Assembly (NCBI RefSeq): GCF_000702905.1
Contig: NZ_JNKR01000002.1
Span: forward strand, 124,001 to 188,000
From: Mitsuokella jalaludinii DSM 13811
Lineage (GTDB): Bacteria; Bacillota; Negativicutes; Selenomonadales; Selenomonadaceae
DNA: 64,000 nt
Direction: 5' to 3'
Program-made: the position numbers and the translations under genes
The notes under the pieces: model-generated
What the model was told of the DNA's origin: nothing
The model's database searches: none
Seen by the model: only the letters and a program-made list of their open reading frames with translations
In this document: in pieces, positions 10,029 through 60,254 of the stretch
Layout: each line of letters begins with the position of its first letter
Numbering within the stretch: the stretch's first letter is position 1

Positions 10029-10067
10029 GCTCATCTCACGTCTGCGCCTGCCCTGCGGCGAAGCGCT

Positions 10068-10165
10068 CCATCTCCCTACGTTGGCATTATCCAAATCAGG
10101 TCAAGGGTCGGGACCACGAGTCCCCTCTCAGCCTGCTGTGCACGACGCCGCAAGCTCCCCCGTTA
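10068..10165 (-). promoter_or_regulatory. TPP riboswitch (THI element)
   Basis: The minus strand shows the conserved order GGGGGAGCT, GCTGAGAGG, then GACCCTTGACCTGATTTGGA and TAATGCCAACGTAGGGA. These are the hallmark thi-box sequences. An intrinsic terminator lies 40-70 bases downstream, so thiamine pyrophosphate should cause early termination ahead of thiS-thiG-thiH-tenI. Confidence 0.95.
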
Positions 10166-10181
10166 TGCAATTGCAACTCTT

Positions 10182-25505: not shown

Positions 25506-26447
25506 TCATCGCTTCTCGCGATGAATAGAGTCCTGCCCCTCGTCAAAGCTCTGCAAGACGTGGCTGACGTAGTCGCGAATCAGGTCGATCTTGGGGCTGT
25601 TCTTCTTGTAGATGAGGCAGGCGTCGACGCGCAGCGGCTGCGCGAGCTCGTACCAGCCGTCGCGGCAACCGAGTGCGCGCAGCAGGCGCTCCGGCAAGAG
25701 CGCTCCCGCCCCATTCTGCTGGCAGTAGTAGACCATCGCGTAAGGCGTCGAGAGGCGCGCCGAGATGACGGGCGTTTCCTTCTCGAGAACGGGCGCGAAG
25801 TACGCGTGGAACGTCTTGTTCATGAAGTAATTCTTCGGGTAGATGACGATGGGCAGGCGCGCAATCGCCTCGCGCGTGACAGGCACAACACGAGGCTGCA
25901 GGAGCGGCGCGTAGTAGACGAGATTGTCCCAGCAGAAGTGCGCCGTCTCGTACTCGGCCGCGCCGCCCGCCGGCAGCGAATCGGCGACGTAGTACGTCGA
26001 GGCGACGTCGAGGCGGTCATCCTGCAGCGCGCGGCAGATCTGGTCCGTCTCGAGATCGAATACGTTGAAGCGCAGGTTCTTGTTGGTCTGGCGGAAGTGC
26101 GCGATGTGGCGGTTCACCTGGATGTCGCCGAGCGTCCGCAGGATGCCGACATTGAGCTCAGCGGGCTGCGCGGCATTGGCCGACTGCAGGTCGTAGACGA
26201 TCTTGTGCAGGCCATCCATCCAGTCCGTGATGCGCGCGAGGAAGACCTTCCCCGCCTCCGTCAGGTGGCTGCCGCGCTTCGAGCGTTGGATGAGCGTGAC
26301 GCCGAGCGCGCTCTCGAGGTTCTTCATCTGCGCGCTGAAGGCCGACTGCGTGATGTTCGCCTCCTTGGCCGCTCGCGTGAAGTTCTGCACACGCCCGTAG
26401 ATAATGAAGCATTCCAGCTGCTGGATGCTTGGCAAATCTCCCATCAT
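25506..26447 (-). CDS. LysR-family transcriptional regulator
   Basis: A 313-aa protein. The N-terminal winged helix-turn-helix reads LECFIIYGRVQNFTRAAKEA, ITQSAFSAQMKNLESALGVT and LIQRSKRGSHLTEAGKVFL. The rest is a periplasmic-binding-protein-like effector domain. GGGAGG precedes the ATG pair at 26447. It has its own promoter and terminator; the next gene on the strand is the MFS transporter, a possible target. Confidence 0.9.
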   Translation of the reverse strand: MMGDLPSIQQLECFIIYGRVQNFTRAAKEANITQSAFSAQMKNLESALGVTLIQRSKRGSHLTEAGKVFLARITDWMDGLHKIVYDLQSANAAQPAELNVGILRTLGDIQVNRHIAHFRQTNKNLRFNVFDLETDQICRALQDDRLDVASTYYVADSLPAGGAAEYETAHFCWDNLVYYAPLLQPRVVPVTREAIARLPIVIYPKNYFMNKTFHAYFAPVLEKETPVISARLSTPYAMVYYCQQNGAGALLPERLLRALGCRDGWYELAQPLRVDACLIYKKNSPKIDLIRDYVSHVLQSFDEGQDSIHREKR

Positions 26448-26520
26448 AAAAGCCTCCCAATCGATCCGCGAGGATCATCCGACACGATATAAATACGATT
26501 TATCGAAACGATTGACTACC

Positions 26521-26549
26521 ATTCTAACAGAGGCCATGTGATTTTGCAA
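26521..26549 (-). promoter_or_regulatory. Promoter of the LysR gene
   Basis: Minus strand TTGCAA (26549-26544), 17-base spacer, TAGAAT (26526-26521). It lies just after the terminator of the upstream RNA, so lysR need not be read from that RNA's promoter. Confidence 0.6.
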
Positions 26550-26557
26550 TACAGCCC

Positions 26558-26715
26558 ACGAAAAAGAGGCCGCCGCATCGCTGCGACAGCCTCTGTTCTT
26601 TTCGGTCGAAGGGCGCCGGCTCCCATCACGTTGACTTGTGGTTGGCGTTCAAATCAATGGACTTGACTGGAGCCGGCAAGATAAAGCCTTTCGGCTTGCC
26701 AACCTACCCCCTTCA
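26558..26715 (-). ncRNA. Free-standing structured RNA with a pseudoknot (about 158 nt), unidentified
   Basis: Between a TATAAT at 26727-26722 and a strong terminator (AGAGGC...GCCTCT then TTTTT, 26561-26594), the minus strand encodes a highly structured RNA. Seen directly: closing stem GAAGGG/CCCUUC; a hairpin AAGCC-GAAA-GGCUU inside GGCAAG/CUUGCC; a 9-bp stem GCCGGCUCC/GGAGCCGGC enclosing about 45 bases; and a perfect 7-bp pseudoknot in which GGUUGGC near the 5' end pairs with GCCAACC in that enclosed loop. There is no open reading frame. I cannot match it to 6S, tmRNA, SRP RNA, RNase P or a known riboswitch. Confidence 0.6.
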
Positions 26716-26721
26716 TCTATT

Positions 26722-26750
26722 ATTATAACGGAATACAAGGTCCAAAAAAG
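26722..26750 (-). promoter_or_regulatory. Putative promoter of the structured RNA
   Basis: Perfect TATAAT (26727-26722) on the minus strand with only a T-rich -35 region (CTTTTT/TTTTTT, 16-17 bases upstream). The weak -35 suggests help from an activator or an UP-like element. Confidence 0.45.
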
Positions 26751-26758
26751 GCGATTCC

Positions 26759-26798
26759 ATTGTAGGAACTCATGAAAATATTTGTGAGTTCCTACAAT
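26759..26798. repeat. Perfect 14-bp inverted repeat
   Basis: ATTGTAGGAACTCA (26759-26772) and TGAGTTCCTACAAT (26785-26798) are separated by 12 bases. It lies after the exonuclease stop and just upstream of the structured RNA promoter. A T-run follows nine bases later on the minus strand. It may be a terminator of the exonuclease gene or an operator for the RNA. Confidence 0.55.
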
Positions 26799-26837
26799 AG
26801 AAAGCACTGGACAAGTGCTTTTTGCGCAATCTCCGCC

Positions 26838-27590
26838 TCATCCGTCCTCATTTTCGTCCGTTTCTCCCGCTTCTTCGGCTTCGCAGTCGAGGTACTGACA
26901 GACGAGCGAGCGGCCGCCCTCCCGCGCGAGAAGGTCGGGAAGCCAGTCCGGCTTCTCCTCATTGTCCTTGAGCAGGCATTCGAGCAGCACGTACGAGGCC
27001 AGCGCGTCCTCGAAGGCGCGGTGCTTCTTCTTCGTGTGCCAGCCAAACGACTCCAGGAGGGCGACGAGGTTGTACTTCTTGCGTTTCGGCAGGAGCTGCT
27101 GTGCGAGGCGCACGGTGTCGAGATAGCGCGGGCAGAAGCGGATGTTCGTGTCGTTCTTGTGGTTCATGCGCATGAGCGCGAGGTTGATGCTCAGGATGTC
27201 GTTGTCACCGATGGCGTGGCCGACGACGAGGTCCTCCGGGTCGACGAAGTCGAGGAACTCCGGCAGGATAACGTCGAGCGGCGACTTGTCCCTGAGGTCC
27301 TCCTTCGTGAGGCCCGTCATGTTGCGCACCGTGCGGTTGATGAAGGTCCGCGGGCGGATGAGCCGGCGGAAGACCTCAATCTTGTCCGAGGCGATCGGCA
27401 TGCGGATGGCCCCAATCTCGATGATGTCGTCGGGGAACGCCCCGGCCATCTCGAGGTCGAACGAGACGACGCCCCTCGGATGGAGCTCCGCGAGCCCCTC
27501 GAGGCTGACGGACTGCGCGTGGATGGCCCGCTCGAGCTGTTTCTTGCGCCGTCTCTGGCGGCGCTTGTTTTCCTGTTCCTTACTCCGCAT
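26838..27590 (-). CDS. DEDDh 3'-5' exonuclease (DnaQ-like)
   Basis: A 250-aa protein. After a very basic N-terminus (RRQRRRKKQ) comes the exonuclease fold: VVSFDLEMAGAFPDDIIEIG (DxE motif), VVGHAIGDNDILSINLALMR, and KHRAFEDALAS (H-x4-D of the DEDDh type). The acidic tail is short. It resembles DnaQ/PolC-type exonuclease domain proteins that act on DNA or RNA. The start at 27590 (MRSKEQEN) has CAGGAGAG. The basic extension suggests nucleic acid binding. No operon partner. Confidence 0.85.
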   Translation of the reverse strand: MRSKEQENKRRQRRRKKQLERAIHAQSVSLEGLAELHPRGVVSFDLEMAGAFPDDIIEIGAIRMPIASDKIEVFRRLIRPRTFINRTVRNMTGLTKEDLRDKSPLDVILPEFLDFVDPEDLVVGHAIGDNDILSINLALMRMNHKNDTNIRFCPRYLDTVRLAQQLLPKRKKYNLVALLESFGWHTKKKHRAFEDALASYVLLECLLKDNEEKPDWLPDLLAREGGRSLVCQYLDCEAEEAGETDENEDG

Positions 27591-27696
27591 GATACTCTCC
27601 TGTTCTACTCGCCTGCCCGCGCCAGGAGGCGCACGGCAGCATCTGCGATATCGGTGCATAATGGCCGCTATCTTTCGTCATCGCCTTGTCTGCCCA

Positions 27697-60176: not shown

Positions 60177-60254
60177 GGTCGGGATGACAGGATTCGAACC
60201 TGCGGCCTCATCGTCCCGAACGATGCGCGCTACCAAACTGTGCCACATCCCGAC
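60177..60254 (-). tRNA. tRNA-Pro (anticodon CGG)
   Basis: Minus strand cloverleaf: acceptor GTCGGGA/TCCCGAC, D arm GGCACAGTTTGGTAGCGC, anticodon stem CATCG/CGATG with loop TTCGGGA (anticodon CGG), and T arm CAGGTTCGAATCCTG. CCA is not encoded. It has its own promoter and terminator. Confidence 0.95.

Follow-up and report, generated by a model that had tools for sequence, protein, structure and literature searches.

A structured RNA family of Mitsuokella and related genera with an invariant loop and, in two of its three forms, a 5′ complement of that loop

What does the interval between an exonuclease gene and a LysR-family regulator gene of Mitsuokella jalaludinii DSM 13811 encode, and how might its product act? 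The window analysed here, a 64,000-nt stretch of contig NZ_JNKR01000002.1 (assembly GCF_000702905.1, forward-strand positions 124,001–188,000), had been read in the original prediction as holding there an unidentified free-standing RNA with a promoter, a terminator, no reading frame and a pseudoknotted fold. Judged by its sequence, the locus encodes a free-standing RNA on the minus strand, from window position 26714 to approximately 26561.

The RNA gene and its fold

The presumed 5′ end of the RNA is the GAAGG at approximately 26714, which opens a structured core (GAAGG…CCUUC, 26608–26714, minus strand) that ends at 26608 and is defined by homologues and covariation. Seven nt before this 5′ end lies a good −10 element, TATAAT (26722–26727, minus strand), from which transcription would start at GAAGG; TATAAT stands 6–7 nt ahead of GAAGG in 5/6 copies of the Mitsuokella group, the remaining one (G001) having TATACT. 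No −35 could be recognised, and for lack of one the consensus scan lists no promoter based on TATAAT. The promoter that had been predicted is therefore retained as a putative one, read from its −10 element, and the predicted terminator was borne out by a terminator scan of the window (13-bp stem followed by a U-run, 26561–26594, minus strand). For the remaining copies, inspection by eye showed a hairpin and, after it, a U-rich run, in G018 at 59–92 nt downstream of the core. As predicted, the RNA appears to be non-coding: its three forms have no reading frame in common, the longest frame of each copy ranges from 24 to 54 codons, several of these frames read on past the terminator, and resemblance between frames is confined to close relatives.

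The best conserved 6-mer upstream of the RNA is a TACAAT box (26759–26764, minus strand) that begins 50 nt ahead of the 5′ end. TACAA or TACGA begins at −50 to −52 in all six Mitsuokella-group copies (0/300 shuffles were as good, the shuffles ignoring relatedness), and YACAA is found at −72 or −73 in four of the six. The consensus scan lists a weak promoter-like site, CTCACA-18-TACAAT at 26788–26759, upstream of TATAAT; the box may be either a site for an activator or the −10 belonging to a second promoter upstream. A perfect 14-bp inverted repeat (26759–26798, arms 26798–26785 and 26772–26759) also lies upstream of the −10 of the RNA gene, taking in the TACAAT box and the CACAA at −72; the repeat may mark where the exonuclease transcript ends, or may be an operator.

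The fold outlined in the original prediction was recovered in all its parts, all on the minus strand. The closing stem P1, GAAGG/CCUUC (26710–26714 with 26608–26612), is invariant in the six Mitsuokella-group copies; P3 is a GAAA-capped hairpin, AGCC-GAAA-GGCU (26685–26696), recognised from sequence and folding; and P4–P6 is a long hairpin (26615–26677) comprising the 9-bp stem P4 (GCCGGCUCC/GGAGCCGGC, 26677–26669 with 26623–26615) and P6 (26655–26650 with 26638–26633), with covariation for the hairpin and for both stems. Its loop, of 10–11 nt on a GC-rich stem, consists of 2–3 nt, the presumed seed GCCAACC (26640–26646, minus strand) and an A. The 5′ pseudoknot arm GGUUGGC (26704–26698) is a perfect 7-bp complement of GCCAACC (26646–26640), a pseudoknot read from the sequence, as the folding tool handles nested pairs and not pseudoknots. 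Around the arm there is an extra 4-bp helix, GGUA/UAUC in the window and GAUA/UAUC in relatives.

The 155-nt segment 26558–26712 folds at −70.5 kcal/mol (z −4.6, 0/200 shuffles as stable), and the 107-nt core is also unusually stable by itself (z −3.4, 0/200 shuffles as stable). Three further cores from the Mitsuokella group gave z values of −5.2, −2.7 (1/200 shuffles as stable) and −3.9.

Homologues, covariation and three forms

Thirteen copies were accepted on their sequence, from three genera of one family: six in the Mitsuokella group and seven in genus g16. A DNA search matched 9/150 related genomes, six of which (the window's own included) hold the RNA at the matched place; the matches in G014, G041 and G059 were dropped as short stretches, those in G059 and G014 spanning the terminator only, and the place in G059 is not that of its real copy. 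With stricter filters, under which divergent copies may be missed, a full-length model (R1) matched 7/189 genomes of the family, namely the six and, weakly, G242, and the same seven out of 350 genomes of the class; a model of the long hairpin (R2) matched 15/189 family genomes, of which 13 were accepted, and 5/348 genomes of the phylum, of which three were accepted, all previously found; and a third model (R3), made with 12 of the 13 accepted copies, matched 14/380 genomes of the class, being the same 13 and one rejected (G076). Searched within g16 at E up to 1, R2 matched 9/22 genomes, seven of them accepted. The R2 matches dropped were G043 and G005 (family), G043 and G582 (phylum), and G043 and G240 (g16), the grounds for dropping a match being an incomplete loop or fold, or apparent coding sequence. 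Phage and plasmid collections gave no match to the RNA. A loose pattern picked out 16 loci in genome contigs, five of them true copies and the other 11 rejected on score (best 14.1 bits), and at least 120 stretches in viral contigs, where 67 of the 80 loci listed were scored with R1, the best at 15.5 bits; the sole clear match on R1 scoring of pattern loci was the G242 copy.

Compensatory changes among homologues, which the original prediction had called for, were found. In the six Mitsuokella-group copies (five distinct), 98.9% of cells pair and eight are both-sided, neither value being reached by any of 500 shuffles, and the number of both-sided pairs was reached by 5/500. For P4 and P6, examined over 12 copies (11 distinct), the paired fraction is 97.7% of cells and 18 cells are both-sided (0/500 shuffles), while the number of both-sided pairs was reached by 6/500; in both alignments the shuffles ignore relatedness of the copies. 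The count of further pair types was no higher than in shuffles, 420/500 (Mitsuokella group) and 315/500 (12 copies) reaching it. Sliding the partner strand cut pairing to 19–48%, a control biased towards any structure drawn from the sequences it is applied to. The pseudoknot arms showed no covariation (6/7 pairs are invariant and the remaining one has a C-G to U-G change), so support for the pseudoknot comes from finding the 5′ arm again in a second lineage.

The copies fall into three forms: form A, the Mitsuokella group (six genomes), and, within g16, form B (G059, G241 and G231) and form C (G242, G246, G079 and G243). GCCAACC is identical in 13/13 copies. Forms A and B carry its 5′ complement (9/13 copies: eight GGUUGGC and one, in G044, GGUUGGU). 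In form C (4/13) the loop is kept, and no complement of at least 5 bases was found within 60 nt on either side of the hairpin. G044 and G001 have an additional complement of the loop on the 3′ side, lying in G001 inside P4. GGUUGGC apart, the 5′ domain differs between lineages; in form B an alternative closing stem, AGGGA/UCCCU, can be read, and GGGA(U/C)A/UGUCCC competes for the same bases. Simple arithmetic puts the chance of finding a given 7-base complement in approximately 45 nt near 0.3%, and finding it in A as well as in B is therefore taken as meaningful. Moreover, the identity of the loop in every copy, with its cis partner gone in four, shows that the pseudoknot is dispensable and that something besides it maintains the loop.

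A scan of the whole window against the 4227 families of Rfam 15, proposed in the original prediction as a check, gave no match to the RNA at or above gathering threshold; the best match overlapping it was sroE (15.7 bits versus a threshold of 51), and a permissive scan of 26000–27300 returned 13 matches, none near its family threshold. The size class of 6S or raiA, suggested earlier, did not turn out to be an identity. 6S RNA is likewise free-standing and of similar size, and differs in that RF00013 was not matched here, while the genome's own 6S lies on another contig (G000:C4:12204–12376, 55.6 bits); raiA, an Rfam family, was not matched at the locus in the Rfam scans. A literature search on small RNAs in Selenomonas/Mitsuokella, Negativicutes and Selenomonadales gave no report of the RNA. 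The evidence indicates that the family is real, new and narrow, and of a known kind; well supported as it is, it is absent from Rfam 15.

Role of the conserved loop

The best explanation, whose chances we put near even, is that the locus produces an independently transcribed structured sRNA, a trans-acting riboregulator pairing through its conserved loop. The GC-rich rod P4–P6 would present the loop for pairing with a target RNA, in a complex of the kissing or loop-linear type. Kissing loops such as that of the HIV-1 DIS have 2–3 nt before the paired bases and 1 nt after them; the layout of the present loop resembles these, a likeness that favours RNA–RNA pairing. As to accessibility of the seed, the loop is invariant in 13/13 copies and can be paired in cis in nine. 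In form A and one g16 branch, the RNA's own 5′ GGUUGGC would close the loop as a pseudoknot, and this 5′ arm would lock or stabilise the loop until a target, Hfq or processing opened it; in the other g16 branch (form C) the lock would be missing. The more specific proposal of a built-in lock, in which the 5′ end imitates the target, keeping the seed loop in a kissing-type pseudoknot, and the opening of this lock is the regulated step, is tentative, and we think it a good deal less likely than trans pairing as such. If it were true, the two locked forms and the one unlocked would constitute a natural experiment on gain and loss of the lock. The presence of the arm in one branch and its absence in another, with an identical loop, offers a ready test, and the conserved loop is a defined bait for capturing a target or protein.

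Known RNAs offer partial parallels. RydC is an Hfq-dependent enterobacterial sRNA whose pseudoknot fold is needed for stability, and it shares with the Mitsuokella RNA its small, free-standing nature, a pseudoknot and a U-rich 3′ end; the RydC fold exposes a 5′ seed, whereas the 5′ arm here would pair with the presumed seed loop (PMC4337610). The sequences of the two were compared by way of the Rfam scans. The odc1 motif has a long hairpin, a large loop and a pseudoknot between 5′ end and loop in common with the present RNA, and is itself an alpha-proteobacterial cis element with a uORF (PMC8632094). Unlike odc1, the Mitsuokella RNA lacks a reading frame common to its forms, and the gene downstream of it is not conserved.

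An exact search with GTGGTTGGCG, a 10-mer, gave 83 matches in 12 genomes, 11 of which are the RNA's own antisense; all of the other 72 were inspected, and no target common to all lineages was found among these genomes. Two sites recur near a start codon, neither of them found in a Mitsuokella-group genome. The first lies 60 nt inside a gene which, by its sequence, we take to be sugar-kinase-like, in G231 and G241 (form B) and G242 (form C) (loci L213, L229 and L266), and may be a coincidence of the conserved VVGD protein motif. The second, 72 nt before a presumably Nfo-like gene (again by its sequence) in G231 and G241, overlaps a likely −35 (of a TTGGCG-17-TAGAAT element). In the whole window GGTTGGC occurs 15 times against 7.3 expected (2/100 shuffles as high); none of these 15, two of which are in the RNA locus, is near the start of a frame of at least 90 codons with a ribosome-binding site. 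An Hfq gene was found in 12/13 RNA-bearing genomes (G018 has the RNA and gave no Hfq match) and also in all three of the other genomes searched, which have no accepted copy, so Hfq permits the trans-acting model and does not single it out.

That a convincing RNA target was not found in the exact 10-mer search is one point in favour of a protein-binding RNA, in which the hairpin loop would be a protein recognition site, for titration or as a scaffold, and the pseudoknot would tune access to it; the invariance of the loop while the surrounding helices covary is another. However, this reading comes with no candidate protein, the occurrence in two lineages of GGUUGGC, complementary to the loop in cis, speaks for base pairing, and we regard protein binding as rather unlikely.

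The original prediction saw in the elaborate fold a hint of ligand binding or catalysis. In an RNA of that sort the pseudoknot would belong to the pocket, and the stability of the fold would suit it too. This was not supported: four of the 13 homologues keep the loop exactly with no cis partner, hard to reconcile with a pocket that depends on the pseudoknot, the 5′ domain is lineage-specific except for GGUUGGC, and there is no conserved downstream gene to regulate. A ligand-binding or catalytic role is improbable on these grounds. The Rfam scans gave no match at the locus to a known catalytic (ribozyme) core. Slightly more doubtful than a ligand-binding or catalytic role is a dimerising RNA, in which loop and GGUUGGC would pair between two molecules and control the stability or activity of the RNA: the two arms are complementary in 9/13 copies, but one of them is missing in the other four.

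Genomic context

Directly upstream of the RNA lies the gene for an RNase_T (DnaQ-type) exonuclease (26838–27659, minus strand; Pfam RNase_T). A homologue (48–100% identity, the window's gene included) on the same strand ends 109–163 nt before the RNA in 6/6 Mitsuokella-group copies, and none was detected in the 5–13 kb around the seven g16 copies. Downstream, the LysR-family regulator gene (25506–26447, minus strand; Pfam HTH_1 and LysR_substrate) comes next in 3/6 Mitsuokella-group copies (the window genome, G001 and G002), which are 3/13 overall, and is preceded in the window by a promoter-like site of its own (26521–26549, minus strand, a 9-of-12 consensus match), downstream of the RNA terminator. 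The next protein gene downstream is convergent in 9/13 genomes, being ftsY directly next to the RNA in G242 and G079 (by homology) and in the others genes read from open frames. In G018 the RNA is followed by tRNA-Leu and then a 975-residue frame.

No same-strand downstream gene, such as a riboswitch or cis-acting leader would have, is conserved among the 13 genomes. Since contexts differ and the downstream gene faces the RNA in nine of them, the RNA does not appear to be the leader of LysR or of another conserved gene, in keeping with the earlier view of it as free-standing. A cis-acting leader or attenuator of LysR, suggested by the window, G001 and G002, in which LysR lies downstream of the RNA and in the same orientation, is accordingly the least probable reading and a very unlikely one, given the terminator and separate LysR promoter-like site in between and the convergent genes elsewhere. 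The gltD and ldh2 motifs, like the present RNA, are structured RNAs of Negativicutes orders; they differ in being reported as cis elements, each lying ahead of genes of one fixed type (PMC8632094).

All seven g16 copies (L153 and L176–L181) are divergent from pflB and share the intergenic region with it, a possible case of co-regulation. The g1 genomes have a pflB match that is not next to the RNA, and in the three g17 genomes, all of which carry the RNA, pflB gave no match at E 1e-30; adjacency to pflB is absent from these genomes and was taken as context.

A hairpin resembling a tRNA T-arm, GATAGGGGTTCAATTCCTATC, was seen by eye 22–42 nt downstream of the core in G018 (L005), where ARAGORN reported only the tRNA-Leu, approximately 450 nt downstream of the core. 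Elsewhere in the window there are a tRNA gene (60179–60252, minus strand) and a TPP riboswitch above its gathering score (10056–10171, minus strand).
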